A DNA stretch of 64,000 nt from Thermoanaerobaculia bacterium (GTDB lineage: Bacteria > Acidobacteriota > Thermoanaerobaculia > UBA5066), in assembly GCA_022071945.1 (NCBI GenBank), contig JAJVIN010000012.1, positions 1-64,000 on the forward strand, written 5' to 3'. The notes below the pieces were generated by a model. The model saw only the letters and a program-made list of their open reading frames with translations, did no database searches and was not told where the DNA came from. This document shows, in pieces, positions 6,356 through 62,761 of the stretch; the first letter of the stretch is position 1; every line of letters starts with the position of its first letter. The position numbers and the translations under genes are program-made.

Positions 6356-6360
6356 CGGTC

Positions 6361-7482: not shown

Positions 7483-7502
7483 GGGAGCGCCCCCGTGTTC
7501 TG

Positions 7503-10500
7503 TCACCCCCACGCCCTCCGGTAATCCGCCTCCCTATCACACCGGTCGAACGGCGCCTCGTACCTCACCACCCGCTCCCTCAGTCCCCCTGGCATCGTGT
7601 CGTCGAGCACCGTTCTCGTGACGGTGCCCCCCTTCATCCCCCGGATCTCGTTCCACCGGGCGCGGTCGAGGCCCACGCCGGGGAGGCCCTTGTTGCATGT
7701 GAAGACGATCCGGCCCGCCTGGTCGTACCAGGTGTCCGCCTCGTTCTGCTGCAGGACCGGGAACTGGATCCGGTAGATGGTGCAGAGTTCGGCCAGGGTT
7801 AGCCCCAGCGCCTTCGCCACCAGAACGTCGATCTCCACGAGCGCTTGCCGCCTCTCGTAGTCGCTCCGAAGCGGGGTCTCCCAGGTCCAGTCCCGCGTCA
7901 GCGAGGTGAACCGGGTGGGGGAGAGGCGCGGGTCGTCCTTCGTCCACCGGTCGGTGAGGAAGTCCGGGGTGAACGAGGCGGCCCAGAGGTCCGCGTAGTG
8001 GGTCGTGAGGCAGTTCAGGAGGAGGGTGCGGAGGATGAGGGCGGGGGAGGGATCAATCAACGGGAGGCGACGGGCCGTGTCGTTTCGAAAGTGAGTCTTG
8101 CCCGTCGTCTTGAAGAAGAAGTCTGTTGGCAGCGCAGCCGTCAGGGCTGCGAGTGCAAGGATGTCAGGGGTCGCGCAGCCCGCAACGCTGAAGCATCCAT
8201 CAACGTGGGCTGCGTGCCGCGGGAGAAGCGCCGAGATCAGAGTCCGTTCTCCCGCTTGTGAAGCCATCAGCCGAAACGCGAGCCGGTACTCCTCCGTCAC
8301 CGGCTTCTTCTCGCCCCACGGCATCCTCGGCGTTCTCTCGCGGTACGTGTACGGGTCGCAGGCGGGAACGTAGTTCGTCCGGGGCAGGTAGTCGGCCGGG
8401 AGAGTGGTCAGGTCGATCGGGTCGTTGGAGAGGTTGCTCGTCCGCTCGGCCTTCGGCGTCTTGGAGAACGGGTTCGCGACGTAGATGTGAGGTCCCTGGA
8501 GGATCCAGTCCGCGGGCGTGGCGGCGAAGCAGGTCTGAGGTCTTATCGTGCCGTCGTGCTGGGAGATCGTCTCGTTCCAGTGGGTCGTCGCGAACAACTG
8601 GTCTTCGACGTCGCCGAGACGGGTGGGCCAGGCCGCGAAGCGCTGGAGGACGGAGAGAAGCTCCGTCGAATGAAGCGATGGCAGGCGCGCTTCGAGCGGG
8701 GACGTACCGGGTTCGTCGTAGAGCCTCGCGAAGAGCGCGAGTTCCGCTTCTGTCACTTCGATGATGCGAGACGGGTGGCCTGTCGTACACCAGGCGCCGG
8801 AGTCGTCTTTGATTCCAGGGACGGGCACGGGAAAGAGGTTCGAGGAGGCCCGGCTTTGGTCTACCTGGGTCTGAGGTTCCTGGATGGATTCGCGGGTTGG
8901 TGGTGGGGCAGGGGCGGGCTCTAACTCCCCCAACCCCCTCTTGACACAAGAGGGGGCTCTGGAGTCCAGGAGGTCGAAGCTCGCGTCCAGCGTCGCGGGG
9001 GTGAAGAGGTTGCAAACGTGCGTGAATGCTGGAGTCTGGTGAACTGGACCGTAGATGTTGATGCCGTACGGCCGATGGTGGTCGATCTCGGCGAACAGCG
9101 ACAGTTCGTTCTGGAAATGGCCGTGAAGGCGCAGCCGCCGGTACACCGCACGCCTCAGCTCGCCTGCCTTCGGGTCGTCGTAGATGCCCTCCTGATGGAC
9201 GAATCCACTGACGCCTTTGTCGTTCACCACCATCCAGGCCTGCGGCAGGAAGCACTTGTAGAGGTTGGCAGGGCTGCCTTTTAGCACCGCGTAGTTCTGC
9301 TCCGCGTTCAGGAACGCCTGGAGTCCGTTGAACTCCACGAACTCGGCGAGATACGCCTCCCGCAGGCCGGTGAGCTTGGACATCGCCTCGCGCCGCAGCT
9401 CCGCGAGCTTTGGCGCCGAGTGCCCGCGCAGAACGTAGAGCGGCTCGAAGTCGCCCATCACACCGCCCTCGTTCCACTCCACCTTGATCCAGGGCGGGTT
9501 CCCCACGATCAGGTCGAACCCGCCGCGGTCCGCGAAGAGGTCCGCGAACTCCAGCTCCCAGTGGTGGAACCGGTGCCGCTCCGCCACCTCCTTCACCACC
9601 GTCAGCCTCGCGCTCTTTCGCACCAGCCGGTCCACATCCACGAACCCGAACTCGTCCACCATCGAGAGCGCCTGCTGCCGCGGCATCGTCTCGGGAAAGA
9701 GCGTCCCCTGCTCCGGCTCCGTGATCAGCGCCACCCCTTGCGACGTCCCCTCCAGGAGCAACGCCATCTCCAGCAGGAACTCGTCCCGCCCCGGCAACAA
9801 CCCCGCCTTCTCCACGGGCCAGAACCAGAGCGCGCACCAGTAGTCCATCGCCATCTTTAATCGCCGGTACGGGCTCGAGGACTTCACGTTCTCCGACAGG
9901 AACTCCTGCGCAAAGACCCGGTCCTTCTCCTTCGTCGTCAGGACCCGTCCGGGCCGGTAGAACGGATCGTCTTCTTTTCCGAAGATCGCCACCGCGTTGC
10001 GAGTCTCGGCCTTCAGCTTCCGCCGCATCTCGACGTGACGCGTCCAGAGCCGGTCCACCGCCGCGGAGAGCCTCCGGAGCGCCTTGACGTCAGAGCCCGA
10101 ATACGGAGCCCCGAACTCCTTCTTCCACGCCTTCGCCACCGAGACCTCTTTCGGAGCCAGATCCTTCACCACCCGGTCGCCGAAGTCCGCCATCCCGCCG
10201 TCCGGGACGAGGAAGTGATAGACCGCCCCTTCTTCCCGCGCCTCCGGCAGCCGGACCCGCTCCGGCACGCCCGCGAAGACGTACTGGTCCTTCTTCCCCT
10301 TCGCCGGCACGGGGCGGAACACCTGGCGTCGGGCCCCGACCAGACTGTTCCCCACCACGAGCTGGTTCCCGAACCACGGGATCGTGTGCCCCGCGTAGAT
10401 CGTGTTCAGCCAGATCGAGATCTCCGCCAGCTCCACCGCCGTCGGGTTCAGGTCCACCCCGTAGACGTTGTTGTCCGCCAGATACGCCTTGACCTTCTGC

Positions 10501-12548: not shown

Positions 12549-15430
12549 CAGTTCGCCTCCCCGGTGAAGACCGCCGAAAGACGCAGATAGGGCTGGTCCT
12601 CGATCGTCATCGTCTCCTTCACCCAGGTGACGTGATCGTCGAAGACGCGCGCGATCTGCCGCCGCCTCTCGGCTTTCTTCGCGCGCTGCATCCGGTTGAG
12701 TCCGGCCGATTCGGGAAAGTCCTTCTCCAGCTGCTCGCTCTGCCTCTCCTTCAACCGCGTCAGGTTCGCGAGGTGTTCGCTCAGCCGGATCTTGTGCCGC
12801 TCACGGAACTCGTGGCACCTGGCCAGGAGGAACTCCCGGGCGCGCTCGACCGCGTCCTTGACCAAGCTCTGGATCGGGATGAGGTCTGGGGTGACGCCCG
12901 TGTTGGCGAAGACCTTCGTCGCGAATCGCGTGCGGGAAAGGCAAGCATCGAGCGTCAGGGTCCCCGCGAAGACTCCGCGCTCGTAACGGACTCCGAACCA
13001 CGCGTGGACGGCCGGGTGCCCCTTCTGGTTCGGGATCTCGCCCTGCATCAGGAAGATCGCTTCTCCCGGTGCCAGAGCGCCCCGCAGAACCACGACCGGG
13101 GCCTCGCGCCGCTGGAAGGCGACCAGAAGCCGGTGGCCGAGCCACTCGACGAAGGGGTGGAGATCCCACAGGAGGTGAACGTCCGGCCAGCGCCGCTCCT
13201 CGGACCGGCAATCGCGAATCGCCCTCTTCACACGGTCACGATCGATCGTGAACCAGATCGTGCCGTCTTCGGGCAGCGCTTCTTTCGGGAGCGCGCGAAA
13301 CGCTCGCCTCAAGTCCTCGTGCGGCTGGACCTCGAGGGCCTTCATCTCGGAGTCGAAGCGCCACTCGAGCCGGTTCTCCTTCTTCAGCGCGTCGAGCGCC
13401 TGCCGGCAAAAGGCGAGGTCGTCGGTAAAGAGACTCGGCAGGGCGTGGGTCTCCTCCAGGACCTTCGCGGTCCCGGTGGGAGCCGTCGAGCCGAAGAGGA
13501 TCTCGAGGAGGTTTAACGGAGCCTTCTCCGTTCGCTCCACCTTCTTAGAGTCGACCCAGGATTCGAAGCGTTCCGGGCCGACGCCTTCTTCCATGGCAGT
13601 GGCCGTGATCGCCTCCTCGGCGGTTTCCTCATAGACACCGTAGAAGGCAGTCGGGTCGCCGATGTTCTTCTGCGCCTCGGCGTCCTTCATCGCGAGGAGT
13701 TCCAGAATGCGGGCATCCCCCTCGATCCGGTGAGTCTTCGACGTGACGAAGAGATACGCGATGAGAGGCTCCCGCTCCTGCCCATAGCGGTCGATGCGTC
13801 CGTTCCGTTGCTGGAAAACGATGAACGACCAGGGCGTGTCGAAATGGACCATCTTCCGGCAGAGGAAGTGGAGGTTGAGCCCTTCCGACGCCATGTCGGT
13901 GGCGAGGAGAAGCCGGACGGGTGACTTCTCGCGGCCGAAGTCCTCCACCGTCTCCTGGAGTTCACGGTCGGAAGAGTCCTGGCCGTAGATCTCGGCGATC
14001 TGGGAGGCGGAAAGGCCAAGGTCGCGGGCGAGGTTCTCCCGCAGGAACTTCAATGTCTCGATTCGCTCCGTGAAGATGACCAGGCGGTCCTTCGTGTCCG
14101 AGCCCGTCCAACCCACCTCCGCCGGAGAGCGCAGGAGCGTGAGGAGACGCTGGTAGCGGGTGAAGCGGTCCGGAGTGATCGCGGCCACGGCGGTGTCGAG
14201 CCGTGTGAGGGAGTCGCGGTCCTGGCTTGCGGCGTCCGAGGTGAGTCCGTCGAGCTTTCTGAGGCGCTCCCGGATGGTCTGGCGGCAGGCGGCGGGGCTC
14301 GAGAAGAGCGCCTTTTCCAGAACGGTGCGGAAGAGGTGCTGGCCGGGGCGCCGCCTCCGGTCGAAGGACTCGAACGAGAGCCCCGCGAGGACCCCGAAGG
14401 CCGCCTCTTCTTCCGGGCTGGCCGCGACCCGGGCGCGCAGGATGCGCCGCTCCTTCAGCGAGGCCCCAAGCTGGGAGGTGACGTCCTTCTTGAAACGCCT
14501 CACGTGAAGCCCCCGGATGTCGGACTCGCCGTAGTCGGACGGGTTGGCGATGGCGGTCGGGTCCAGCATGTTCATCAGGCTCGCGAACGACTCGGCCCGG
14601 CCGTCGTGCGGGGTGGCGGACGTCATGATGAGCGCGTCGGAGCGGGTCGCCAGGAGGCGGGCGAGCTTGTAGTTGAGCTTGTTGGGGTTGCCGCGCTCGG
14701 CGACCCGGTGGGCCTCGTCGATGACGATGACGTCCCAGGAGGCATTTTCCAGAAAGACGCGGTACTCGTTTTCTTGCTTCAGCGTGTCGATCGAGATGAT
14801 CGCTCGGTCGAAGTGGTGGAACGGGTTGGCGTTGGCGGGCAGGAAATTGCGAATCCGCTGGACCCCGGTGGAATCGAGCCTCACGAGGGGGATGGTGAAG
14901 CGCGACCAGAGTTCCTTCTGGAACTGGGTCATCATGCTCTTGCCCGTGACGGCGAGGATCCGCTTCCCCTTGCCGCGCCGGATCAGTTCGGCGAGGAGGA
15001 TCCCAACTTCGATCGTCTTTCCGAGTCCGACGGCGTCGGCCATCAGGATGCGCGGACGCGGCTGGGCTAGGGCTTGCAGGGCGGGTTCGAGCTGGAAGGG
15101 GAGAAGGTCCATGGCGGCGCGGTGGCCGATCCAGATTCCGGAACCCGTGGGCGGTGACTGCCGCAGCAAGGCCTCGAGATAGAGACGCGTGTCGCGGAAC
15201 TGGGGTGACGGGTCGGGGACGAGGGTGGTTTCCGCCGGATCGAGAAGGACGATGCCTTTCCCCTCGATCTCGGAGAGGAACCGGGCTTCCCGGCCCCGGA
15301 CGAGTTCCGAGACACCCGTGGCGGAGATGGAGACGCCGCCCGTGGAGGTGGAATCGACGCGGCGGACGATCCACTCGACGCCGCGAATCTCGACGCGTGC
15401 CCCGGGGGCGATGGGCGATGCGGGAAGCAT
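12548..15430 (-). CDS. SNF2/RapA-family helicase (DrmD-like)
   Basis: From the ATG at 15430 the product has 960 residues. A small N-terminal module (WIVRRVDSTST) precedes a superfamily 2 helicase core: Walker A AVGLGKT at 133-139, DEAH at 238-241, TSATPHDGR, and motif VI QQRNGRIDRYGQE. A long C-terminal part follows. This build matches SNF2-like helicases of class 1 DISARM and other methylase-associated helicases, which move along or remodel DNA using ATP. The gene is read first and the methylase follows with a one-base stop/start overlap, so they likely form one complex. A longer frame to 15550 exists, but its first 40 residues look like upstream non-coding sequence. No Shine-Dalgarno sequence precedes this ATG; a TATCCT box seven bases upstream could serve a leaderless transcript. 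Confidence 0.85.
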   Translation of the reverse strand: MLPASPIAPGARVEIRGVEWIVRRVDSTSTGGVSISATGVSELVRGREARFLSEIEGKGIVLLDPAETTLVPDPSPQFRDTRLYLEALLRQSPPTGSGIWIGHRAAMDLLPFQLEPALQALAQPRPRILMADAVGLGKTIEVGILLAELIRRGKGKRILAVTGKSMMTQFQKELWSRFTIPLVRLDSTGVQRIRNFLPANANPFHHFDRAIISIDTLKQENEYRVFLENASWDVIVIDEAHRVAERGNPNKLNYKLARLLATRSDALIMTSATPHDGRAESFASLMNMLDPTAIANPSDYGESDIRGLHVRRFKKDVTSQLGASLKERRILRARVAASPEEEAAFGVLAGLSFESFDRRRRPGQHLFRTVLEKALFSSPAACRQTIRERLRKLDGLTSDAASQDRDSLTRLDTAVAAITPDRFTRYQRLLTLLRSPAEVGWTGSDTKDRLVIFTERIETLKFLRENLARDLGLSASQIAEIYGQDSSDRELQETVEDFGREKSPVRLLLATDMASEGLNLHFLCRKMVHFDTPWSFIVFQQRNGRIDRYGQEREPLIAYLFVTSKTHRIEGDARILELLAMKDAEAQKNIGDPTAFYGVYEETAEEAITATAMEEGVGPERFESWVDSKKVERTEKAPLNLLEILFGSTAPTGTAKVLEETHALPSLFTDDLAFCRQALDALKKENRLEWRFDSEMKALEVQPHEDLRRAFRALPKEALPEDGTIWFTIDRDRVKRAIRDCRSEERRWPDVHLLWDLHPFVEWLGHRLLVAFQRREAPVVVLRGALAPGEAIFLMQGEIPNQKGHPAVHAWFGVRYERGVFAGTLTLDACLSRTRFATKVFANTGVTPDLIPIQSLVKDAVERAREFLLARCHEFRERHKIRLSEHLANLTRLKERQSEQLEKDFPESAGLNRMQRAKKAERRRQIARVFDDHVTWVKETMTIEDQPYLRLSAVFTGEAN

Positions 15431-21072: not shown

Positions 21073-22551
21073 TCAGGCCGGAAAAGAGGGCCGGAGCCGG
21101 GAGACGCCGCTCGCCCACCAGGAGTGGTTCTTTCGGGCGGTCTCGTCGATTTCCTTCACGGCCGTGCGGAACTGGTCGAGCCCCCTGAAGTAGAGCTGCT
21201 GTCTCAAGAGCGACTTGACGCGGGCCACCACCTCGAGCCCATCGAGCGGGAGGGGAAGGAACTCGTCGATTCCGGCCTCCACGGCTTGCTGACGGGCGTT
21301 TCGGGAGTGCGGTCCCGAGCAGAGGAGAAGGGGCCGTTCGGCGCCGCCCGGGCCGGCCTTGAAGCGGCGGATCTCGCCGAACGTCCGGTCATCCAGGGCG
21401 GAGGGCTCGAAGACCGCCAGGTCGAAGTCCTCGGCGAGGGGGTTTCTGAAGTCCGGAAGGGTTTCCAGGTGCAGGACGTGATGGCCAGCGGTCTGGAGCA
21501 TGTGAGAGAGGGTGTCCTTGTTGGCCCTCGTCGCGGCGACGATGGCGATCCTCCCCGGCGAAGACGAAGACAGGGGCGTGACGAGCTCCTGCCAGTCCGG
21601 TGTCGGTCCGCCAGGACGGTAGGGGAGCCGCTCGTCCTCGCGCAGGAATTCGTTGACCAGGTCGAGGCGGTAGGCCTTCTGTCCGGCCGCCAGACGCAAG
21701 TCCTGGCCCGCCTCCTCGGCGCTTTTTCCCGCGAGAAGGAGCCCGTCGAACTCGTTGGTGATCGACACGATCTGGACGCCGAGAGAGGGAAAACCGCCTT
21801 CCAGGGCCGGGAAACCCGAGCCGTCCAGGCGCTGGTGGTGGTTCCTGACGATCTCCCGGACGGCCTCGAATCCCGAGATTCCCGAAAGGAACCGCGCTCC
21901 GGCCTCGGGGTGCGTTTTCCACTCCTGGGAGATCTCGGCATCTTCCCGCCGGAAACCGTGAGGCGAGAGCGAGACCATGCCGATGTCGTGCAGGATGGCT
22001 CCCCACCCCATCGACTCGGCCTCGCCGGCGGGCAGGCCCAGATGAGTCGCGAGCCTGAGAGAGTTGACCGCCACGCGCTCGGAGTGGCCGGACCGCCCCA
22101 GCCGGGCGTCGATGGCCTTGACGAACGTGAGGAGCGTGGCTTCCGCCTGGTCGATCTCGTCCCTCAACCGCTTGATCCGGATGAGGGACCTCACGCGAGC
22201 GATCAGCTCGGCCGGATAGACCGGCTTCGACAGGTAGTCGTCGGCGCCGAGATTCAGTCCGAGCGCCTTGTCGGTCGAGTCCGAGAGCGCGGTCAGCATG
22301 ATGACGGGGATGAAGCGGGTCCGGCGTCTCGTCTTCAGGCTGCGGCAGACGTGATAGCCGTCGAGCCTCGGCATCATGACGTCGAGGATGACGCAGTCGA
22401 AATTCGTCATCTCCGCGGCCTCGAGGGCTTCTTCCCCGTCGATGGCCTCCCGGACCTCGAAGCCCTCGCTTGTCAGGATCTCGGCGAGGAGCTCGAGGTT
22501 CTCGGGCTGGTCGTCCGCGGCCAGGATCCGGCCCTTCTGAGAGCCGTTCAT
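21073..22551 (-). CDS. Receiver-HD-GYP response regulator with a second, Glu-bearing receiver
   Basis: The 492-residue protein has a canonical receiver (phospho-acceptor Asp57, Lys109) followed by an HD-GYP domain with His188-Asp189 and HHQRLDGSGFP at 238-248. HD-GYP enzymes break down cyclic di-GMP, but here the usual HDIGK reads HDIGM and GYP reads GFP. A C-terminal receiver-like domain (about 333-450) has Glu382 where the phosphorylated Asp should be, which may mimic a permanently phosphorylated state. The ATG overlaps the stop of the single-domain receiver gene by four bases, so it belongs with the hybrid kinase upstream. Whether it cleaves cyclic di-GMP is uncertain. Confidence 0.85.
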   Translation of the reverse strand: MNGSQKGRILAADDQPENLELLAEILTSEGFEVREAIDGEEALEAAEMTNFDCVILDVMMPRLDGYHVCRSLKTRRRTRFIPVIMLTALSDSTDKALGLNLGADDYLSKPVYPAELIARVRSLIRIKRLRDEIDQAEATLLTFVKAIDARLGRSGHSERVAVNSLRLATHLGLPAGEAESMGWGAILHDIGMVSLSPHGFRREDAEISQEWKTHPEAGARFLSGISGFEAVREIVRNHHQRLDGSGFPALEGGFPSLGVQIVSITNEFDGLLLAGKSAEEAGQDLRLAAGQKAYRLDLVNEFLREDERLPYRPGGPTPDWQELVTPLSSSSPGRIAIVAATRANKDTLSHMLQTAGHHVLHLETLPDFRNPLAEDFDLAVFEPSALDDRTFGEIRRFKAGPGGAERPLLLCSGPHSRNARQQAVEAGIDEFLPLPLDGLEVVARVKSLLRQQLYFRGLDQFRTAVKEIDETARKNHSWWASGVSRLRPSFPA

Positions 22552-22943
22552 CGTCCGTTCTCCTTTCTTTCGGTCGGAAGGAAGGGCGAGAGCTCCGAGA
22601 GGAACGTCTGGACGTTGATGGGCTTGGAGATGTAGCCCTGAAAGCCGGCCGAGAGGATCCGCTCCCGATCGCCGCGCATGGCGAGGGCGGTGAGGGCCAC
22701 GACGGGAATCCGCTCCCAGGCCGGGCGGCGGCGGATTTCGTAGAGAAGGGAGGTCCCGTCCGAGCCCGGGATGTTCATGTCCATCAGGACGAGATCGGGA
22801 GGATCTCCGGCCATGGCCTCGCGGGCCGTCCGGGCGTCCTCGGCCTTGATGATCCGGGCGTTTGCCTCCTCGAGAAGGAACTCGACGAGCTCCATGTTCT
22901 GCTCGTTGTCCTCGACGACGAGAACGGTGCGGCCCCTAAGCAC
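22548..22943 (-). CDS. Single-domain response regulator (CheY/DivK-like)
   Basis: The 131-residue protein is a lone receiver with acidic pocket EDN (11-13), phospho-acceptor Asp55 in LVLMDMNIPG, Thr/Ala switch residue in VVALTAL and Lys107 in GYISKP. It has no output domain, so it probably passes phosphoryl groups or regulates a partner by contact. It overlaps the upstream hybrid kinase by eight bases and the downstream HD-GYP gene by four, making a three-gene signalling unit. Confidence 0.9.
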   Translation of the reverse strand: MLRGRTVLVVEDNEQNMELVEFLLEEANARIIKAEDARTAREAMAGDPPDLVLMDMNIPGSDGTSLLYEIRRRPAWERIPVVALTALAMRGDRERILSAGFQGYISKPINVQTFLSELSPFLPTERKENGR

Positions 22944-25161
22944 GCGGCGCCTCCTTCTCCGGGCTGCCCACGAGCCCTTCGATGATCTCGACGAGATTCG
23001 CGGGGGATGTGGCGCCCTTCTGGACGAGCGCCGTGATCCGGCCCGCCAGCTCCTGACGGTCGGATCGCGACAGGTCGCGCGCCGTCAGGACGAGGATCGG
23101 CGTCTTCGCCAGGACCGGGTTGGCCCGCATCCTTCGCGCGACCTCGAATCCATCCATCCCCCTCATCATCAGATCCAAAACGACGAGACTCGGCGGGGTC
23201 TGCTGGGCCATGGCGAGGCCCTCCTCGCCGCCATAGGCGTGAAGAAACGTGAAACTCTTGTTCTTCGCCGCCTCGGAGATCATGAGGTGGGCGCTCTCCT
23301 CGTCGTCGATCACGAGGATCGGTCCATCCCGCCTGGGTGAGCGAGCCAGGATCTCGGAGAGCCGCCGGATGAGGTGCTCCCCGTCGACGGGCTTCAAGAG
23401 GTAGTCCTCCGCGCCGAGCGCGATCCCGAGGTCTCGATTGTCGACGACCGAGATGATGATGACGGGGATGTCCCGGGTGACCGGGTCGGATTTCAGGGCC
23501 TTGAGGATTTCCCACCCGTCGAGGCCGGGAAGGACCAGATCCAGCGTGATCGCGGCGGGAGTCAGGGCGTGAGCGAGGGTGATGGCTTCTTCCGCGTTTC
23601 GCGCCCGGAACGGAATGAACGAGGCGGCCAGGATTGTCTGGCCAATCCTCTCGTAGGCGACCGGATCGTCCTCCACGATCAGGATCCGGGGCCGCTTCCC
23701 TTCGGCGCGAAGGTTCGGCGATGAGGCCGAGGAGATCTGCCGCACACCCTGGAAGCGCCGGGGCAGGACCACCGTGAAGACCGCTCCCTTGCCGAGCTGG
23801 GAGTCGACCGTGATGGCCCCGCCCTGGAGCTCGAGGAGCTTCTTGACCAGCGAGAGGCCGAGGCCCGTGCCCTGGTGCTTGCGCGTCGTCCCCCCGTCGA
23901 CCTGTCGGAACTCCTGGAAGATCACCTCGTGATCGCGAGGGTCGATTCCGGCCCCCTGGTCGATGACCTTGACGAGGATCGCTTCCTTGCCGAGCGGCGA
24001 GTTGGCCTCGGGCAGAAGCTGGGCCCGCACCGTCACGCTCGAGCGGGGCGGCGAGAACTTCACCGCGTTCGAGAGCAGGTTGTAGAGCACCTGTTTGAAT
24101 TTGACCGCGTCGGTCTCGAGGGCCGGGAGGTTGGCAGGCACGTCGATGACGAACTCGACTTCGTGCTTGGCCGCCATCCCCTTCATCACGTGACAGACCC
24201 CCTCGACGACGGATTGAACCGAGACGGGCTCGGGGTGGAACTCCATTTTGCCCGCCTCGATCTTCGAGAGGTCGAGGATGTCGTTGATGATCCGGAGCAG
24301 GTGCTGGCCCGATGTGTTGATGTTCTGCAGGAACTTCAGGTGTTTCGGCGGAAGCTGCTCGTTGAGCCGGGTGAGCAGGATGTCCGAGAACCCGATGATC
24401 GAGTTGAGGGGGGTCCGGAGCTCGTGGCTCATGTTGGCGAGGAACTGGCTCTTGAGCCGGTCCGCCTCGAGGATTCGGAGATTGGCTTCCTGGAGTTCCT
24501 TGGAGGACTCGTCGAGGGCCCCGGTGAGGCGCGTCAGCTCGGCGACCTTGCGGGCGTCGTTCTCGCGCAGATGGGCAATGACCATCCTCTTGCTTCTAAG
24601 GTCGGCGACGCCCCAGAGCGTGAAGGAGGTCGCCCCGTGCAGGAACGCCATCTGGCTCAGGGCGGTCATGAAGGTGTGGTCGAACCCCTTGATCTGCCCC
24701 AGGGCGATGAGACCGCCGAAGTAGAAGACCGAGTTCGCCAGCGTCATCCACAGGGCCCCTGGAATGCCCCAGAGGAAGGCCGCGGCACCGAGCGGGGCGA
24801 GGTACCAGATGAACCACGAGCTGGCCAATCCGCCGCTCACGGACATCCCCCAGGTGATGGTGAACGTGTCGGCCAAAAGCCAGAGGGGGTCGATGTTGAA
24901 CGAGGGCTTTCCCCTCAGGGTCCTCCATGCCAGATAAGCGGGGGGCACGGTGGAGCTCGAAGCGAAGGCAAAGATCTTGAAGAGATCGAGGTTGGTGACT
25001 TCGAGGACGCCCGCCGCGCGGAAGATCACCGCGATGACCGTGGCGAGGGCATAGGTGAGCAGGCGGTTCCGCTGCATCGCCAGCCTGAATCGCGCCTGCC
25101 TGTGCTCCCGCTCCCGGGCGGTTGGGTCCAAGACGGCCTCCTCGCGGGTCTTCCCTGACAC
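22936..25161 (-). CDS. Membrane hybrid histidine kinase with two receivers
   Basis: GTG at 25161, four bases after GGGAGG, gives 741 residues. The first 200 or so residues contain several hydrophobic segments (a MASE-like membrane sensor), then a coiled coil, a HisKA domain with His246 in NMSHELRTP, an ATPase domain (GTGLGLSLVKKL), and two receivers: the first around 500-610 (TLDLVLPGLDG) and the second around 622-735 (VVLDLMMRGMDG). It should autophosphorylate and feed its own receivers and those of the overlapping downstream genes. The signal it senses is unknown. A longer frame to 25239 lacks a ribosome binding site. Confidence 0.88.
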   Translation of the reverse strand: MSGKTREEAVLDPTAREREHRQARFRLAMQRNRLLTYALATVIAVIFRAAGVLEVTNLDLFKIFAFASSSTVPPAYLAWRTLRGKPSFNIDPLWLLADTFTITWGMSVSGGLASSWFIWYLAPLGAAAFLWGIPGALWMTLANSVFYFGGLIALGQIKGFDHTFMTALSQMAFLHGATSFTLWGVADLRSKRMVIAHLRENDARKVAELTRLTGALDESSKELQEANLRILEADRLKSQFLANMSHELRTPLNSIIGFSDILLTRLNEQLPPKHLKFLQNINTSGQHLLRIINDILDLSKIEAGKMEFHPEPVSVQSVVEGVCHVMKGMAAKHEVEFVIDVPANLPALETDAVKFKQVLYNLLSNAVKFSPPRSSVTVRAQLLPEANSPLGKEAILVKVIDQGAGIDPRDHEVIFQEFRQVDGGTTRKHQGTGLGLSLVKKLLELQGGAITVDSQLGKGAVFTVVLPRRFQGVRQISSASSPNLRAEGKRPRILIVEDDPVAYERIGQTILAASFIPFRARNAEEAITLAHALTPAAITLDLVLPGLDGWEILKALKSDPVTRDIPVIIISVVDNRDLGIALGAEDYLLKPVDGEHLIRRLSEILARSPRRDGPILVIDDEESAHLMISEAAKNKSFTFLHAYGGEEGLAMAQQTPPSLVVLDLMMRGMDGFEVARRMRANPVLAKTPILVLTARDLSRSDRQELAGRITALVQKGATSPANLVEIIEGLVGSPEKEAPRA

Positions 25162-54363: not shown

Positions 54364-57114
54364 ATGATGGAGTCGCCGCCCTTTTCACCAGGGGTCCAGA
54401 TTGGCCGCTACATGCTCGAGGAGACCCTCGGCAAGGGCGGTATGGGGGAGGTGTTTCGGGCCGAGGACACCGTTCTTCGGAGGCGTGTGGCCATCAAGGC
54501 ACTGCCTATGGAGGTCGTGGCAACGCCGGAGCGGCTGGCGCGATTCGAAAGAGAGGGGAAGCTCGCCGCGGGACTCTCCCACCCGAATCTCGTCCAGATC
54601 CACGACGTCGGGGAGCACAAGGGGGTCCCTTACATCGTCCAGGAGTTCGTGGACGGCGAGAGCCTCGAGGACATCCTGGGCCGTGGTCCCGTCGACCCCA
54701 GGCAGGCGGCCGACTGGTGCCGTCAGGCCGCCCTCGGCCTTTCGGCCGTTCACGAGGCGGGGATCGTTCATCGCGACATCAAGCCCGGGAACATCATGGT
54801 GGGTCTGGATGGCCGGGTCAGGGTCCTCGACTTCGGTCTCGCGACCATGGAATCGGGCCGGCCGGTCGAGTGGACGGCGGAGAGGGCGACCCTCACGCGG
54901 GAGGGCTTCATCCTGGGGACGGCCCACTACATGTCCCCCGAGCAGGCCATGGGCAAGAAGCTCGACGGCAGAAGCGACATCTTCTCCCTGGGCGCCGTCC
55001 TCTACGAGCTTCTGGCTGGAGTCCGTCCGTTCGAGGGGGACTCCTCGATCGACGTCTTGCACGCCGTCCTTCATGAGGAACCCGCCCCTCTCCCTGCAAA
55101 CCACGGGATTCCGCACGAGCTTTCGACCCTCGTTTCACAGATGCTCGCAAAAGACCCGGCCCGCCGCCCGCCTTCAATGAAGGGTCTGGCCGAGTCCCTC
55201 GCGCTCCTCTTCAAGAGGTCCAGATCCATCACACCCGCGACCCTCTCCCCCGGGCCGCCCCGGCCTCGGGACGATGGGAGCGAGACCAGAACGACGGTCG
55301 CCACCCGGACAACGGTCGCCACGGCGAGGCCCCCTCGGGCCAGGGCGGGAATCATGGTGGCCGTCCTCCTGAGCGGCCTGTGTCTCGGAGGCGTTCTGGC
55401 CTGGGGAGTCTTCCGGCCGCGCCCCTCGCCGCCTCTGCCGCCTCCATCCCCCGTACAGCTGACGGCTTCGGCTGGCCTCGACATCTTTCCCAGCTTTTCC
55501 CCCGACGGGGCGAACTTGGTCTACAGCTCGAACCGGTCCGGCGGCTTCGAACTCTACGTGCGCTCGCTCGCTCCCGGAGGCCGCGAGGTCCAGCTGACGG
55601 ACGACGGGCAGGAGAACTTCCAGCCAGCCTGGTCGCCCGAGGGGACGCTCATCGCTTACCACTCGAAAAAGCGTGGGGGGATCTGGGTCCTGCCTTCGCT
55701 GGGAGGCAACGCCCGTCAGGTCTCTTCCTTCGGGTCGCGTCCCGCCTGGTCGCCGGACGGAAAGCTCCTGGCCTTCGAATCGGGCCCCCTCGTCGACCTT
55801 TCCGCGAGCTACCTCGGCACGCTCCCGCCGTCCGTCATCTGGATCTCGAAGGTTGATGGATCCGACGCACGCGCCATCACGGCCGTGGGACGGCCGGCGG
55901 GAGGGCACGGGTCCCCCTCGTTTTCTCCCGATGGGACCCGGATCGCCTTCTCCACCTATGAGCGAGCGTTGAAGGGAGAGCTCTGGACGGTCGACGTGAG
56001 GACCAAGGAGATCGCGAGGGTGGCGACGGGAACGGGTTTCCGGCTGGATCCCGTCTTCAGCGCCGACGGCGGCGAAATCTACTTCGGAGGCGTCAGCGAG
56101 GGCTGGAACTACGGGGTGTTCCGGGTCCCCGTGTCGAAGAAGACGGGCGCCGGAGAAGGAGAAGCCCGCGAGGTCTTCAACTTCGGCCTGGGGCCGATCC
56201 GGCAGCTGGCGGTCTCCCCGGACGGCAAACGGCTCGCGTATTCCTCGCTCACGATGGCGAGCAACCTGATCTCGCAGAGGGTGGTCCCCCGCTCGGGAGA
56301 GCCGGCCGGGCCGCCCGAGAACGTGACACGCGAGACGGGCAGGAATTCCCGCCCCGCGTTCTCTCCGGACGGCAAGCGCCTCGCCCTGACGAAGTGGAAG
56401 CTGGGATCCAGGCAAGACATCTGGATCTGCGACGAGGATGGAGGAAATCCCGTCCAGCGGACGACGCACGCCGCCGATGACGACTTTGCCCAGTGGTTTC
56501 CGAATGGCGAGCGGCTGGCCTTCGTTTCCCACCGGCTCGGCTACACCGCCTTTTTCACGCAGGATCTCGCGACGAGCCAGGAGGCCCTTGCCGCCGACGT
56601 CGGACGGGGCGTTGACTTCCTTCGCCTGGCTCCCGACGGGCTGCGATTCAGCTTTCACCGCGCTCCAGAGGGAGGCGTCATCAACACGTGGATCGGTGAG
56701 TTCGGAAAAGGGGAGCCGCGCCAGATCACGTTCGACCATGAGATGGCCGGGTTCGCCTGCTGGTCGCCGGACGGGAAGCTCCTTGCCCTGGAAGTCAAGC
56801 GCGGCGAGGACGTTCAGGTCGGCATCGTCTCTTCGGGCGGCGGCGCGATCCGGCTGCTGACCTCGGAGCCCGGCCAGGCATGGCCCTACACCTTCTCCCC
56901 GGACGGAAGCCGGGTCGCCTTCGCGGGCCTCCGCGGCGGTCTGTGGAACATCTTCTGGATTCCGGTTTCGGGCGGCTCCGCCGTCCAGGTCACGAAGAAC
57001 ACCCGCCTCAACGCCTATCTCCGGTACCCGGCCTGGTCTCCCCGTGGTGACCGGATCATCTACGAGCACGCCGAGACGTATGGCAACGTCTGGGTGCTCG
57101 AGAACTTCCGCTGA
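54364..57114 (+). CDS. Ser/Thr protein kinase receptor with an extracytoplasmic PD40 propeller
   Basis: The 916-residue protein has a PknB-type kinase domain (about 16-285): glycine loop GKGGMG at 23-28, Lys45, HRDIKPGN with Asp138, DFG at 156-158. A Pro/Thr linker and one membrane segment (329-350) lead to a TolB-like PD40 propeller (about 365-900) with repeated SPDG motifs. This build is a hallmark of Acidobacteriota. The propeller probably senses an envelope ligand and controls the kinase, which phosphorylates Ser/Thr of target proteins. It resembles the kinase-less propeller protein at 44720. Targets are unknown. Confidence 0.92.
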   Translation: MMESPPFSPGVQIGRYMLEETLGKGGMGEVFRAEDTVLRRRVAIKALPMEVVATPERLARFEREGKLAAGLSHPNLVQIHDVGEHKGVPYIVQEFVDGESLEDILGRGPVDPRQAADWCRQAALGLSAVHEAGIVHRDIKPGNIMVGLDGRVRVLDFGLATMESGRPVEWTAERATLTREGFILGTAHYMSPEQAMGKKLDGRSDIFSLGAVLYELLAGVRPFEGDSSIDVLHAVLHEEPAPLPANHGIPHELSTLVSQMLAKDPARRPPSMKGLAESLALLFKRSRSITPATLSPGPPRPRDDGSETRTTVATRTTVATARPPRARAGIMVAVLLSGLCLGGVLAWGVFRPRPSPPLPPPSPVQLTASAGLDIFPSFSPDGANLVYSSNRSGGFELYVRSLAPGGREVQLTDDGQENFQPAWSPEGTLIAYHSKKRGGIWVLPSLGGNARQVSSFGSRPAWSPDGKLLAFESGPLVDLSASYLGTLPPSVIWISKVDGSDARAITAVGRPAGGHGSPSFSPDGTRIAFSTYERALKGELWTVDVRTKEIARVATGTGFRLDPVFSADGGEIYFGGVSEGWNYGVFRVPVSKKTGAGEGEAREVFNFGLGPIRQLAVSPDGKRLAYSSLTMASNLISQRVVPRSGEPAGPPENVTRETGRNSRPAFSPDGKRLALTKWKLGSRQDIWICDEDGGNPVQRTTHAADDDFAQWFPNGERLAFVSHRLGYTAFFTQDLATSQEALAADVGRGVDFLRLAPDGLRFSFHRAPEGGVINTWIGEFGKGEPRQITFDHEMAGFACWSPDGKLLALEVKRGEDVQVGIVSSGGGAIRLLTSEPGQAWPYTFSPDGSRVAFAGLRGGLWNIFWIPVSGGSAVQVTKNTRLNAYLRYPAWSPRGDRIIYEHAETYGNVWVLENFR

Positions 57115-57117: not shown

Positions 57118-59001
57118 TCACGTCTCCGAGCGCTGGGATTCCTTGCGGGCGAGCCAGTGGGAGAGGGTCCGGGCCAGCTGAACTCTCGTGAAGGGCTTGG
57201 AGATGTAGTCGTCCATGCCAGATTCGAGGGCCCGCTGGCGGTCGCCGGCCATGGCGCTCGCGGTCAGGGCGATGATGGGCACCGGACGAAGACTCCGGAT
57301 CGCCTCGTGCTTGCGAATGGTCCGGGTCGCCTCGTAGCCGTCCATGCCGGGCATCTGGCAGTCCATCAGGATGGCGTCGTAGCCTCCGCGCGCGGCGGCC
57401 GCGACGGCCGCGGTCCCTTCCTCCACCAGATCCGCCGTGCATCCCAGATTCTTGAGGTGGGCCAGGACGACCTCGCTGTTGACGGGGTTGTCCTCGGCGA
57501 CCAGGATCGCGGCGCCCAGGTTGATTCCGCCCTCGAGGATCAGGGCGGGTTCCGGGGTCTGGCTCGTCCCGCTGAGATACCGCGCGGGACAGAACCTCAC
57601 GGTGAAGGCGAAAACCGTCCCGTCCGGTTCCGAGCGCTCGATCCAGATGTCGCCCCCCATCAGGCCGGCGAGCTGGCGGCAGATCGCGAGGCCAAGTCCG
57701 GCCCCGCCGGAGCGGCGCGCCGCCGAGTCGTCCGCCTGGGAAAAGGGCTGAAAGAGCAGCGGCTGGACCTCTTTCGGGATCCCTCTCCCGGTGTCGGCGA
57801 TCCGGAACTTCAGCACGCAGGGGTCTTCGTGCGAGATCAGACCCGCCTCCACCCGGATCGAACCCTTCGACGTGAACTTGATCGCGTTTCCGATGAGGTT
57901 CGTCAGCACCTGCTGAAGGCGGTCGCGGTCGCCCAACACGAGCGACGGAACCCAGTCATCGACCGTCCACGTCAGATCCAGCCCTTTCGCCCTGGCCCGG
58001 CCGGCAAAGAGTCCGACCGAGCGCGCCACGACGTCTCGAGGGTCGAAGTTCGAGGTGACGAGCTGGAGCGTGCCAGCTTCGATGCGGGAGAAGTCGAGGA
58101 TGTCGTCGATGATCCGGAGAAGCGAGCGGGCGGACTCCTCGATGGCCTCGGTCTGCCGGCGCTGCTCGGGCGAAAGCCTGCTGTGCATCAGGAGCTCGTT
58201 CATCCCGAGAACGCCGCTGAGAGGGGTCCGGATCTCGTGGCTCATCTTGGCGAGAAACCTCGACTTGGCGAGACTGGCGGCCTCCGCCTGCTCCTTGGCC
58301 TCGGTCAGGCCGATCTCGGCGTTCAGGCGCCGCTCGACCTCTCGCTGGAGGTCCTTGTTCACGCCCGAAACGCGCTCGACGAGATCGGCGTTCTCGAATT
58401 TGAGCGTGAAGCCCTCGACGATCTTCTCGCTGGCCGCTTTCCCAATGGAGGCCATGGCGCCCGCATAGATGATCGTGATGCACCCCGACAGGATTCGGAA
58501 GGGATCGCCACTGGCCAGGAAGAGGTTGACGGCGAAAGGCGTCAGGATCGGGAAGAGGACGGCCGCGTATTGAGAGAAGAGCGGCGTGTTGGCGATCAGC
58601 GCTCCGGCCGGGACCCCCGCGGCGATGAAGACGACGAGCGTGAAGGCCTCCGTCCCCCAGGGCGGAGCCAGGACCGAGACGGCCACTCCCCAGAGGCTCG
58701 CGGCCAGAAGAGATCCTAGGGTGGCGTAGCCGGCCCAGCGGCGCGCCTCGTGAATCGGCGGACGCCTCTTCCAGTAAATCCGGATGCAGGCATACCGGGC
58801 GACCGAAATGAGATTGACCGCGATCCACCATGCCGCCACGACGCGGGCCGTCCGGTGCGTCAGAAGGAGCGCTGCCGTCAGGATCGAGACGGCAACCGAC
58901 GAGATGAGGTTTCTCGGGGTCAGCTGGTAGATCAACTCCACCTGGGCGGCGAACACCCGCTCTCCTATCGACGCCCCGGGTTTCGAGTCCGTCGTTGTCA
59001 T
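57118..59001 (-). CDS. Membrane hybrid histidine kinase
   Basis: The 627-residue protein begins with five or six membrane segments (residues about 25-200), followed by a coiled coil, HisKA with His255 in KMSHEIRTP, an ATPase domain (GGAGLGLAICRQ) and one C-terminal receiver (about 495-618; LMDCQMPGMDG, Lys in YISKPF). No periplasmic domain is evident. It is divergent from the receiver-Ser/Thr kinase fusion and may feed that protein, directly or through the kinase-Hpt protein at 61223. Confidence 0.88.
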   Translation of the reverse strand: MTTTDSKPGASIGERVFAAQVELIYQLTPRNLISSVAVSILTAALLLTHRTARVVAAWWIAVNLISVARYACIRIYWKRRPPIHEARRWAGYATLGSLLAASLWGVAVSVLAPPWGTEAFTLVVFIAAGVPAGALIANTPLFSQYAAVLFPILTPFAVNLFLASGDPFRILSGCITIIYAGAMASIGKAASEKIVEGFTLKFENADLVERVSGVNKDLQREVERRLNAEIGLTEAKEQAEAASLAKSRFLAKMSHEIRTPLSGVLGMNELLMHSRLSPEQRRQTEAIEESARSLLRIIDDILDFSRIEAGTLQLVTSNFDPRDVVARSVGLFAGRARAKGLDLTWTVDDWVPSLVLGDRDRLQQVLTNLIGNAIKFTSKGSIRVEAGLISHEDPCVLKFRIADTGRGIPKEVQPLLFQPFSQADDSAARRSGGAGLGLAICRQLAGLMGGDIWIERSEPDGTVFAFTVRFCPARYLSGTSQTPEPALILEGGINLGAAILVAEDNPVNSEVVLAHLKNLGCTADLVEEGTAAVAAAARGGYDAILMDCQMPGMDGYEATRTIRKHEAIRSLRPVPIIALTASAMAGDRQRALESGMDDYISKPFTRVQLARTLSHWLARKESQRSET

Positions 59002-59192
59002 GTTCTGCCCCAGGAAAGATGTGCCGCCGCGTACTGCGCCAGACCGCCTCGGAGTGACCAGATCTCAAACATGCAGGCGGCCCGATATTCTACCGCCGCG
59101 GAGTGCCCGGTCCTAGCAGGTCCCGGTTTGTGTTCCGGATGGCTTCGGGGGAATACTTGTCGGGAGATGATCCTCGTCCGGAGAGTATTGAG

Positions 59193-61211
59193 ATGAGAGT
59201 CCTGATTGCCGAGGATGATCCGACGTCTCTCTTGATGCTGAAGACGGTGGTCTCGGGGTGGGGGCATGCGGTGACCGCCGCTTCCGACGGACTGGAGGCA
59301 TGGTATTGCCTGCGCGAGCCCGACTCTCCTCCGCTCGCCATCCTGGACCGCGAGATGCCAGGCTTGAGCGGGACCGAGATCTGCCAGCGCGTCCTCGTGC
59401 TCCGCCCGGACGATCCTCCCTACCTCATTCTCCTGACGGCGAAGGGGGAGAAGCGGGATGTCGTCGAGGGCCTGAATGCGGGGGCGAACGACTACATCGC
59501 TAAGCCCTTCGATCTGGAGGAGCTCAGGGCGCGCATTGCCGTGGGCTGCCGGGTTGTCGAGCTTCAACAAGCCCTGGCCCGGAGACTTCTCGAGATCGAG
59601 GAGGCCCACCGGCGAGAGGAGGAGCTCAGGCTCAAGCTCGAGGCGGTCGGCGGCTGGCTGGGTGGGAAGGGGGCCACGAGTCCCGAGGGACTGACTTCCA
59701 TCTCCGCCCTCGCCCAGGAGGTGGCCGACGCGATCGGGGCCGCGGGCATCCAGATCCACGTCTTGCAGGGAGACCGGCTGCTTCCGCTGACAGAAACGGG
59801 CCCTTCCCCCTTCATCTGGCCGGCCCTCCTCGAATCCGTTCTGAACTCGACGGAGATGCTGCAAATTCCGGGATACGTCCTGCTCCCGCTGAGCGCGGCC
59901 CCGGGTTCGAGTCTCGGGGTCCTGGTGGTTCACGGACTCGGGCGGGGCGGGCTCCTCAATCAGGAGCTGGGACTCGTGAAGCTCCTGGCCAGAGAGACGG
60001 CGTCGGGGCTCGAGCTCCTCAGACTGAGGGGGGACTTGGAGGACTTGAGGCGCCGCCAGGAATCCGAAGGCAGGAGCCGGACCGAGGAGACCGCGGAAAA
60101 GCTGGGGGTCTGTCCGAGCTGCATGCGCTGCCATGGGGAAAGGCAGAATACGTGCCCCCGGGATGGGGCCGCCCTGCAGGTCCTGCCCGACGTTCCCTTC
60201 GAGGTGGCTGGACGGTACCGCTTCGAGCGCCGGCTCGGCGTGGGCGGGATGGGAATGGTCTTTCGGGCCCACGACATCCAGCTCGACCGCCGCGTCGCTC
60301 TGAAGGTCGTCCGGCTGCGCCAGAGCCTCATGGACGCCGAGACCAACAGGCGGCGGTTCAGCGTGGAGACGAGGATCCTCGCGGGCCTCAACCATCCAGG
60401 GATCATCACGCTTCACGATTCCGGCGAGCTGGCCTCGGGAACGATGTACATCGTCACGGAGCTCCTGACGGGCCTGGATCTGGAGAGGGTTCTTTCGCTC
60501 TACGGCCCCGGGACTCCGGCGCAGGTCGCCTCCATGATCCTCGATGCCGGAGCGGCACTGGATGCCGCCCACGCTCTCGGGCTCGTCCACAGGGACGTCA
60601 AGCCCGCGAACATCTTCATCGTCCCCGAAGCCCGAGGATTCAGGGCCAAGTTGATCGACTTCGGCCTGGCCCGGTCGCAGGCCGAAGTCCGGATGACCAA
60701 CGACAGCTGCGTCGTGGGAACGCCGCGGTACATGGCTCCCGAGATCTTCAGGGGCAGCGAGGGCACCGCCCGCTCGGATCTCTATTCGCTGGCGGCCGTC
60801 GCGTACGAAGCCCTGACCGACAGGCCCGTGGTCCGTGGATCGCAGATCGGCGATGTTGTCTTGGAGGTTCTCTCCGACGATCCGGCGCCGCCTTCCGAGA
60901 TTCTCGGCGAGTCGGCCCGGCCGCTCGATTCGATCTTCTACCAGGGGCTCGCGAAGGAACCGGATGTGAGACCGGCCTCGGTTCTCGAGTGGGCGTCCGA
61001 AGTCGCCGGGAGGCTCCGGACCGTCGTCGCCATGGGAAGCGGCTGGCCCGAAATACGCGAGACCTCGGCGGCCCTGCGCGTCGACGATGGCGGACCCGGG
61101 CCGCGAGTTTCCCTCCTGGCCGGGATCTCTCCGGCGATCAGGGAGTCCGTCCTTGGTCCGCAGCCCGAGACGACTTCGCATCCACCTGACCCCAGCGGCC
61201 GGCGGAGCTAG
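59193..61211 (+). CDS. Receiver-GAF-zinc ribbon-Ser/Thr kinase fusion
   Basis: I start at ATG 59193, with GGAGAG seven bases upstream, giving 672 residues. A receiver (Asp52 in LDREMPG, Lys104) is followed by a coiled coil, a GAF-like domain (about 165-270), a cysteine cluster (Cys307, 310, 313, 321) and a full Ser/Thr kinase (about 340-600) with GVGGMG at 349-354, Lys371, HRDVKPAN with Asp468 and DFG at 489-491. It joins two-component input to Ser/Thr phosphorylation in one protein: phosphorylation of the receiver should tune the kinase. The flanking genes encode histidine kinases, likely donors. It is predicted to be cytoplasmic. Confidence 0.88.
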   Translation: MRVLIAEDDPTSLLMLKTVVSGWGHAVTAASDGLEAWYCLREPDSPPLAILDREMPGLSGTEICQRVLVLRPDDPPYLILLTAKGEKRDVVEGLNAGANDYIAKPFDLEELRARIAVGCRVVELQQALARRLLEIEEAHRREEELRLKLEAVGGWLGGKGATSPEGLTSISALAQEVADAIGAAGIQIHVLQGDRLLPLTETGPSPFIWPALLESVLNSTEMLQIPGYVLLPLSAAPGSSLGVLVVHGLGRGGLLNQELGLVKLLARETASGLELLRLRGDLEDLRRRQESEGRSRTEETAEKLGVCPSCMRCHGERQNTCPRDGAALQVLPDVPFEVAGRYRFERRLGVGGMGMVFRAHDIQLDRRVALKVVRLRQSLMDAETNRRRFSVETRILAGLNHPGIITLHDSGELASGTMYIVTELLTGLDLERVLSLYGPGTPAQVASMILDAGAALDAAHALGLVHRDVKPANIFIVPEARGFRAKLIDFGLARSQAEVRMTNDSCVVGTPRYMAPEIFRGSEGTARSDLYSLAAVAYEALTDRPVVRGSQIGDVVLEVLSDDPAPPSEILGESARPLDSIFYQGLAKEPDVRPASVLEWASEVAGRLRTVVAMGSGWPEIRETSAALRVDDGGPGPRVSLLAGISPAIRESVLGPQPETTSHPPDPSGRRS

Positions 61212-61222
61212 GGGAGGGGGGG

Positions 61223-62761
61223 GTGGGGGATCGCCTCGGGCGTCCGTCCGGCCGGGTTCCGGTGTGGGGACTCCTCTTGGTCACGGTCCTCTCGCTGACC
61301 GCCGGCGTTCTGAGCTTTCTCCTCGGGACACTCCCGGATGGGGTCCGGGCGCTCGCCGTTGGGTTCGGCTGCGCCGTGGCAGGCACGGCCGGTCTCGCGG
61401 CGGCCGCTCGCGGGACCGGCAAGGAGACGCCTGATTCGGCGTCTCGCCCCCTCGACTCGTCGGGCCCGGTTTCTCGAGGGACCGGCCTCCTCCAGGGGTC
61501 CCGCGGGCAAGACGAAGCCCGCGAGGCCGGTCAGGGAGAAGCCGTCGGGTCAGGGTCTGGCGCGAGTCTGCCGGATCAGCTGCCCGGACGGGCACCCGAG
61601 ACCGGGGCCGCACCGTCGGGCCGGGTGATCACATCCGAGTTCCTGTCTGCTCTCGGCCACGAGATCCGGACTCCCCTCAACGGCATTCTCGGAATGACCG
61701 AGCTGATGTTGGGGACGTCTCTGGACGCCAGGCAGAGGCGGTATGCCGAGGCGGCGTTCGGCGCGGCCGAGGATCTCGCCGCCATCGCGAGAGATCTCCT
61801 CGATTTCTCCAAGGGAGAAGGGGGCAGACTGAAGCTCCGGGTATCCGAGTTCGATCCCGGAGCCGTCCTTTCCGGGACGGTCGAATCCCTTCGGCCCGAT
61901 GCGCGGAAAAAGGGGATCTCGCTCGCCCTGAAGATCTCGGAGGATCTTCCGGCCCGAATTCAGAACGACGAGGCCCGGATCCAACAGCTCGTCGAGAACC
62001 TCCTCGACAACGCGATCAAGTTCACGGACAGAGGCGGGGTCACGGTGAGCGTGGGGCTCGACGCCCGTCCCGTGGCGAGCCCTCACCTTCGGGTAGAGGT
62101 CCAGGACACGGGGTGCGGGATCGAGGAAGACCTGCAGCCCAGGATCTTCGAGGGTTTCGTGAGGGGCGACATCTCGACGAACCGGCGGCACGGCGGCACG
62201 GGTCTCGGACTCGCGGTCTGCCGCCACATCGCCCGGCAAATGGGAGGCGACATCGGCTTCTCGAGCGAGGCCGGGTCCGGATCGTCCTTCTGGTTCTCCG
62301 TGCCCTGCCGGGTGAGACGGGACCCCGAGGAGTCCTGGGACGACTCTCCGATTCCACAGAGCCGGCGGGCGTCGCGGAGATCAGGCGGATTCCGTGCGAA
62401 CCAGGGCTCTGAAACGGCCGTGGCGTTCGATCCGTCCGTCCTGGCGAATCTCCGCACCCTGGGTCCCGAGGCTGGCGAGGGGTTCGTTTCCCGGCTGGTG
62501 TCGGTCTTCATCACGGACACCGAGCGGATGCTCCGGGAGATGCGCCAGACGCTCCAGGCAGGCGAGCGGGAGACGCTGGCCCGGATGGCCCACCGCCTGA
62601 AGTCGGGGACGGCGAATGTGGGGGCCCTCGGGATGACGGCAGCCTGCAAGAGGCTCCAGGACCAGGCCGCATCCGCCGAGGCGGAGACAATCCTCGACGA
62701 CCTCGAGAAGCAGTTTGGCGAGGTTCGGCCTCTTCTCCTGGCGGAGCAGTCGAAGTCCTGA
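61223..62761 (+). CDS. Histidine kinase with a C-terminal Hpt domain but no receiver
   Basis: GTG at 61223 starts 11 bases after the receiver-kinase gene. The 512-residue protein has two membrane segments (about 13-36 and 42-62), a low-complexity linker, HisKA with His146 in ALGHEIRTPLNG, an ATPase domain (GTGLGLAVCRH) and, after a spacer, an Hpt domain with His457 in MAHRLKSGTANVG. Usual hybrid kinases have a receiver between kinase and Hpt; here it is absent, so phosphate must pass through a separate receiver, possibly the one fused to the Ser/Thr kinase upstream. Confidence 0.85.
   Translation: MGDRLGRPSGRVPVWGLLLVTVLSLTAGVLSFLLGTLPDGVRALAVGFGCAVAGTAGLAAAARGTGKETPDSASRPLDSSGPVSRGTGLLQGSRGQDEAREAGQGEAVGSGSGASLPDQLPGRAPETGAAPSGRVITSEFLSALGHEIRTPLNGILGMTELMLGTSLDARQRRYAEAAFGAAEDLAAIARDLLDFSKGEGGRLKLRVSEFDPGAVLSGTVESLRPDARKKGISLALKISEDLPARIQNDEARIQQLVENLLDNAIKFTDRGGVTVSVGLDARPVASPHLRVEVQDTGCGIEEDLQPRIFEGFVRGDISTNRRHGGTGLGLAVCRHIARQMGGDIGFSSEAGSGSSFWFSVPCRVRRDPEESWDDSPIPQSRRASRRSGGFRANQGSETAVAFDPSVLANLRTLGPEAGEGFVSRLVSVFITDTERMLREMRQTLQAGERETLARMAHRLKSGTANVGALGMTAACKRLQDQAASAEAETILDDLEKQFGEVRPLLLAEQSKS

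Follow-up and report, generated by a model that had tools for sequence, protein, structure and literature searches.

Can a His-Asp phosphorelay end directly in a Ser/Thr kinase? The question is raised by three neighboring genes, here named A, B and C, at positions 57118 to 62761 of a 64,000-nucleotide stretch from a Thermoanaerobaculia bacterium (assembly GCA_022071945.1, contig JAJVIN010000012.1, positions 1 to 64,000 of the forward strand); this whole stretch is called the window below. The original prediction, made from the DNA letters, described a receiver-GAF-zinc-kinase fusion between a hybrid histidine kinase (HK) and an HK-Hpt protein devoid of a receiver (REC). The open reading frames (ORFs) were found where it had put them, and the Pfam domains called above the curated gathering cut-offs (HisKA, HATPase and REC in A, REC and Pkinase in B, HisKA, HATPase and Hpt in C) agreed with this description. 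The reading favored here, to which we assign a probability of about one half, is that A, B and C constitute a split multistep phosphorelay, in which phosphate would run from the His of A to the Asp of A, the Hpt of C, the Asp of B and finally the kinase. What is established covers the domains of the three proteins with their intact catalytic residues, the order of the genes, the descent-based type of the A receiver, and the repeated occurrence of Hpt genes near receiver-kinase fusions. The features concerned are as follows.

57118 to 59001, minus strand: gene A, 627 aa, membrane hybrid histidine kinase HisKA-HATPase-REC without Hpt (from Pfam, residues and four hydrophobic stretches)
57166 to 57507, minus strand: REC of A (Pfam, residues 499-611), placed by the REC tree (99/89, clade of 14) among receivers standing immediately before an Hpt
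Gene A, residues 357-469: HATPase of A (Pfam)
58072 to 58269, minus strand: HisKA (DHp) of A (profile match; Pfam, residues 245-310)
59002 to 59192: intergenic region of 191 bp between the divergent genes A and B
59193 to 61211, plus strand: gene B, 672 aa, REC, GAF-like domain, four-Cys ribbon and Hanks-type Ser/Thr kinase, no membrane segment proposed
59199 to 59537, plus strand: REC of B, proposed as the terminal receiver, with the full quintet E7/D8, D52, T82, K104
59691 to 60056, plus strand: GAF-like domain of B, recognized by homologues
60111 to 60164, plus strand: CxxCxxC...C ribbon motif of B, invariant in nine homologues
60216 to 60845, plus strand: protein kinase domain of B, Pfam match to positions 1-201 of 263, with G-loop, K371, HRD 466-468 and DFG 489-491
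61223 to 62761, plus strand: gene C, 512 aa, HisKA-HATPase-Hpt without REC (Pfam), two hydrophobic N-terminal stretches
61634 to 61825, plus strand: HisKA (DHp) of C, with His146
62495 to 62716, plus strand: Hpt of C, with His457 (Pfam, residues 425-497)

A split relay was favored because A carries both the His and the Asp and no Hpt, C carries an Hpt and no Asp, and B holds the remaining Asp. Accordingly arranged, A would autophosphorylate on its His and pass the phosphoryl group to the Asp of its own REC, which would hand it to the Hpt of C and, from there, to the REC of B; the phosphorylated REC of B would then alter the activity of the fused Ser/Thr kinase via the GAF/ribbon linker. For the kinase core of C, a second entry into the relay or a role as phosphatase is conceivable. 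All phosphotransfer steps, the direction in which the kinase responds and its substrates are inferences.

Conserved catalytic residues were present in all three proteins. A displayed H255, N372, D547, T580 and K602. C kept H146, N263, the G1 and G2 motifs and the Hpt residue H457, and its kinase core looks intact; it was the sole HK-Hpt protein without REC among the 17 Hpt-bearing HKs of the genome (matches grouped by ORF). The REC of B held E7/D8, D52, T82, Y101 and K104, so that the residue set of a phosphorylatable REC (acidic pair, Asp, Thr/Ser, Lys) was complete. Its kinase likewise displayed the complete Hanks set, including an APE motif in addition to the G-loop, K371, HRD and DFG. In a profile search of the PDB, the B kinase was nearest PknB and PknA (PknB, E 6.4e-72) and the B REC nearest PleD, while Pfam detected no PP2C or GHKL kinase domain in B. 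The GAF domain predicted for B was recognized through its homologues: B itself gave a sub-threshold GAF_3 match (E 0.02) and six out of nine aligned homologues matched Pfam GAF (best E 5.9e-6). As for the predicted zinc module, the four-Cys motif stood, C307, C310, C313 and C321 being invariant across these nine homologues, and metal binding by the ribbon is presumed from these cysteines.

Gene C starts 11 bp after B on the same strand, and A is divergent, 191 bp from B. This layout would suit a plain two-component pair, in which the HisKA of C phosphorylates the REC of B directly, the Hpt of C serves other receivers or acts as a phosphate sink, and A works separately; the intact H, N and G boxes of the C kinase core fit such a pair as well. 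Against it stands the ancestry of the domains, described below: the C core falls among HK-REC-Hpt proteins, whose kinase normally feeds an intermediate receiver, and the REC of A is of the Hpt-feeding type in a protein that has no Hpt of its own. A simple B-C pair is judged unlikely.

Whose receiver, then, is missing from C? The original prediction proposed that of B. A REC tree was built from 127 of the 131 RECs of the genome (four short fragments were left out); it comprised few columns and its bootstrap had not settled. Support of 99/89 placed the REC of A in a clade of 14, in which each of the 13 other receivers stands immediately before an Hpt. This clade took 13 out of the 16 pre-Hpt receivers of the genome, and of the 19 C-terminal HK receivers that of A alone lay inside it. 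The REC of B belonged to no starred set and sat with stand-alone and other terminal receivers. The Hpt of C grouped weakly (85/84, an open fork) with the Hpts of proteins whose receivers are nearest that of A. Finally, the kinase cores of A and C both lay inside an HK-REC-Hpt clade, with support of 95/91 within their own genome and 96/96 when relatives were added. From these REC, Hpt and kinase-core trees, we take A and C together to be an HK-REC-Hpt relay in two pieces, with B supplying the terminal receiver. The receiver missing from C is, on this phylogenetic evidence, more likely that of A than that of B, which makes the earlier assignment the less likely one.

A sister relation of A and C, which would have indicated duplication followed by complementary loss, was rejected: it was supported at 94/87 with own-genome cores only, and occurred in 0 % of 200 bootstrap trees once relatives were included. 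What was kept from the kinase-core trees is that A and C both appear to stem from the HK-REC-Hpt class. The best relatives of A included other HK-REC proteins without detected Hpt, so A is not alone in lacking an Hpt once other genomes are considered. The distinction between intermediate and terminal receivers is treated in passages of PMC9981736, according to which intermediate receivers do not form one monophyletic group.

The trees also bear on a variant in which the REC of B would be the intermediate between the HisKA and the Hpt of C itself, having moved from C onto the kinase. C has no internal REC and is the direct operon neighbor of B, as this variant would have it, yet pre-Hpt receivers group with the REC of A and not with that of B; we regard it as very improbable.

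A census of the genome (6.17 Mb assembly, 96 % complete) yielded 131 REC, 84 HisKA, 24 Hpt and 106 Pkinase matches. When these were grouped by ORF, ten ORFs combined a Ser/Thr protein kinase (STPK) with a REC, six in the order STPK-REC and four in the order REC-STPK, and 17 HK ORFs included an Hpt. An HK or Hpt gene was located within 1 kb of three out of ten fusions and of one out of 93 other STPK ORFs (Fisher P 0.0026); for Hpt genes alone these values were three out of ten and none out of 93 (P 0.0007). Within 3 kb, an Hpt gene was found for four of the ten fusions, two of the 93 other STPKs and ten of 67 stand-alone RECs (P 0.0006 and 0.077, respectively), stand-alone ORFs being those with a REC and no STPK, HK or Hpt domain. 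Measured against other STPK genes, Hpt adjacency of the fusions exceeds chance. All five REC residues were kept in six of the ten fusions, and the quintet was intact in all four located within 3 kb of an Hpt gene (contigs C30, C19 (two) and C13).

The two loci on contig C19 repeat the pattern of an Hpt gene beside a REC/STPK fusion. In the first (L065), an STPK-REC gene (7868-9103) is convergent with a HisKA-HATPase-REC-Hpt gene (9117-13463, minus strand). In the second (L066), an STPK-REC gene (6318-7721) and, 9 bp further on, an Hpt gene (7731-8519) precede a hybrid kinase on the opposite strand (8988-12497). Pfam at E 0.001 gave an Hpt and no REC for the gene at 7731-8519 (plus strand).

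Local models place a receiver-like N-terminus in the latter gene, which appears degenerate, the usual Asp being absent by eye; the hybrid kinase beside it has an NMT1-type sensor. Elsewhere in the genome, L074 (G000:C3:252593-255498) and L073 (G000:C41:8554-11459) were two near-identical pairs of HK-REC-REC-Hpt and REC-HisKA genes with equal spacing and tree distances of 0 to 0.09, which may reflect recent duplication or assembly redundancy.

STPK-REC proteins matching P0005 over both domains (by aligned range) were present in 13 out of 14 genomes of the family. The most consistent arrangement was found in family f7, the family of genome G037, 18 genomes of which were searched with P0009, one of the STPK-REC proteins of relatives. 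Eight full-length STPK-REC proteins were recovered, and in six of them (G037, G046, G043, G429, G423 and G055, representing four genera) an Hpt-bearing gene directly preceded the STPK-REC gene on the same strand. This upstream gene was HK-REC-REC-Hpt in five out of six; the G043 contig ends inside it, with a partial REC and the Hpt visible. No HK was found near the STPK-REC genes of G058 and G425. Among the 30 stored loci of this search, an Hpt lay within 1.5 kb of six out of ten STPKs with REC and of none of the 20 without (P 0.00035). According to the alignment, inspected by eye, all eight f7 receivers keep Asp and Lys and all six upstream Hpts keep His; Pfam confirmed the domains of the G037 STPK-REC protein, the G429 pair and the G423 HK. 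An operon kept over four genera is evidence of a functional link. A further arrangement was seen at L118 (838-2664, minus strand, G084:C10), where local models place a receiver on either side of one Ser/Thr kinase (REC-STPK-REC).

Several observations weigh against the split relay and its wider extension. A is not in one operon with B and C, and the REC tree places receivers by descent and not by measured transfer. Searches for B covered 60 relatives and 396 genomes of the phylum, those for A and C covered 119 relatives, and contigs were scanned as well, without an orthologous A-B-C cluster coming up; no orthologue of B above 43 % was found in the 60 relatives or the 396 genomes, and the contig scan with B returned partial matches only, at 12 loci (11 to the kinase part only and one to the REC only). 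Conservation of the three-gene cluster was therefore not encountered in the genomes searched. Full-length relatives of B were limited to a second copy in its own genome (C4:8251) and six proteins in the family (G003, G004, G005, G006, G011 and G013), which share 35-36 % identity with B and 45-95 % among themselves; for none of these seven did the fetched flanks reveal an HK or Hpt gene, the contigs of G013 and G006 being 4-5 kb long. The expected tie between homologues of the fusion and histidine kinases thus failed for the nearest full-length ones. Most STPK-REC genes also had no HK neighbor: among 36 STPK-REC loci from relatives, an HK or Hpt gene was located within 3 kb in only seven and an Hpt in two, both of which lie in G037. 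The six f7 operons are orthologous and count as about one event, so that the P value of 0.00035 overstates independence. Key residues were absent in four of the ten fused receivers of the genome. Within 1 kb, the excess of Hpt genes at fusions (three out of ten) over stand-alone RECs (four out of 67) was marginal (P 0.043). The Hpt association of fusions is therefore strong when compared with other kinases and marginal when compared with stand-alone receivers, as would be expected if the fusions act as ordinary response regulators. Finally, distant kinases could supply the fusion receivers, or these could function unphosphorylated.

This last possibility belongs to the explanation that the neighborhood is coincidental, B being an orphan kinase whose REC serves as a dimerisation or scaffold domain or is fed by histidine kinases encoded far away. 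It would gain from the sheer number of candidates (84 HisKA and 131 REC matches), from the unlinked full-length homologues of B and from the degenerate state of several other fused receivers. Set against these are the intact REC of B and the adjacency of fusions and Hpt genes, which exceeds that of other STPK genes and recurs elsewhere as a conserved operon; coincidence is accordingly judged rather improbable. The signal could also be imagined to flow the other way, with the B kinase phosphorylating Ser/Thr residues of the histidine kinases or of its own receiver and Ser/Thr signalling thereby tuning the relay. Ser/Thr kinases that phosphorylate response regulators are indeed described in passages of PMC12471899 and PMC4601284, but such a flow leaves unexplained why REC and kinase are fused and why only REC-bearing STPKs adjoin Hpt genes, and it appears improbable.

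The proposal of a relay ending in a Ser/Thr kinase thus stood in part: it gained from the Hpt neighborhood found here and from the f7 operon, and lost from the unconserved window cluster and the unlinked nearest homologues of B. The window cluster itself is not conserved in the genomes searched, and the principle recurs. On the REC tree, the labels of the ten fused receivers changed at least twice by starred branches and five times in the best tree, which implies more than one origin of the fusions or repeated loss. We tentatively suggest, with a little less confidence than for the split relay itself, that receiver-Hanks kinase fusions are, in this phylum, a standard end point of Hpt phosphorelays and were put together several times over in differing layouts, with His-Asp phosphate directly setting Ser/Thr phosphorylation. 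The layouts would comprise split A and C with REC-GAF-STPK, HK-REC-Hpt beside STPK-REC, and the f7 pair of HK-REC-REC-Hpt and STPK-REC.

The GAF-ribbon-kinase half of B was closest (43 %) to a 1308-aa protein of its own genome (C13:132849), and it is from this relationship that the output module of B seems to be plugged into different inputs. A Y_Y_Y domain was found in one of the nine aligned homologues of B, which is taken to be this protein. At its locus (L039 5459-9385, plus strand, G000:C13), the GAF-ribbon-Ser/Thr kinase forms the C-terminus and a REC-STPK gene is next downstream; the protein resembles a periplasmic propeller/Y_Y_Y sensor in which a Ser/Thr kinase takes the usual place of the histidine kinase. 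Within the window, a Ser/Thr kinase gene with PD40 beta-propeller repeats (54364-57114, plus strand) is convergent with A, 3 bp from its end, and a further two-component cluster (about 22189-24453, minus strand) is composed of a HisKA-REC-REC frame and separate REC frames.

Among known systems, Rcs shows the relay layout closest to the split arrangement proposed here. As presented in passages of PMC7418988, RcsC is a hybrid kinase with REC and no Hpt, like A (HisKA-HATPase-REC); RcsD is a separate membrane protein with a kinase-like core and an Hpt and no REC, like C; and RcsB is the terminal receiver protein, like B. The same passages suggest that RcsC and RcsD derive from duplication of one ancestor. 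They also call the HATPase of RcsD inactive, whereas the kinase motifs of C are intact, and RcsB is a transcription regulator, whereas B ends in a Hanks-type kinase. On account of these two differences the cluster is not classed as an Rcs system; the likeness is one of relay layout. For an Hpt that controls Ser phosphorylation, the nearest known precedent is HptB-HsbR-HsbA of Pseudomonas, which has another kinase fold. There, in passages of PMC6482189, an Hpt phosphorylates a REC protein that controls Ser phosphorylation of a target; HsbR combines PP2C with a GHKL-type kinase/anti-sigma domain and is not of the Hanks type. Fungal Rim15 is also a protein kinase with a receiver domain, which, in passages of PMC8510515, is C-terminal, of apparently unstudied role and devoid of the Asp in Ascomycota. 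The f7 operon shares with the window an Hpt-bearing histidine kinase gene directly beside a receiver-Ser/Thr kinase fusion. It differs in that one protein carries the whole relay unsplit, the HK gene precedes the fusion gene and the receiver follows the kinase domain, while B has an N-terminal REC and a GAF domain. Response regulators combining REC and protein kinase, the same domain combination as in B, reportedly appear in response-regulator censuses.

Literature searches, with thin coverage of subscription journals, yielded no report of an Hpt relay with a Hanks-type kinase at its end. Such a relay was also absent from the passages on Ser/Thr kinases and receivers of PMC12471899, PMC9239204, PMC6944256, PMC9953108 and PMC4601284. 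The bacterial links known from the passages concerned are Ser/Thr kinases acting on response regulators (PMC12471899, PMC4601284) or GHKL-type anti-sigma kinases (HsbR, PMC6482189).

The f7 operon (L226 138-2849 and 2868-4220) offers a conserved, compact two-gene system suited to testing the link between relay and kinase. In eukaryotes, phosphorelays feed MAP kinase cascades. If the relay proposed here is true, a Hanks-type kinase placed last in an Hpt relay would convert stoichiometric phosphate transfer into a catalytic cascade, and one signalling language (His-Asp) may be translated directly into another (Ser/Thr).

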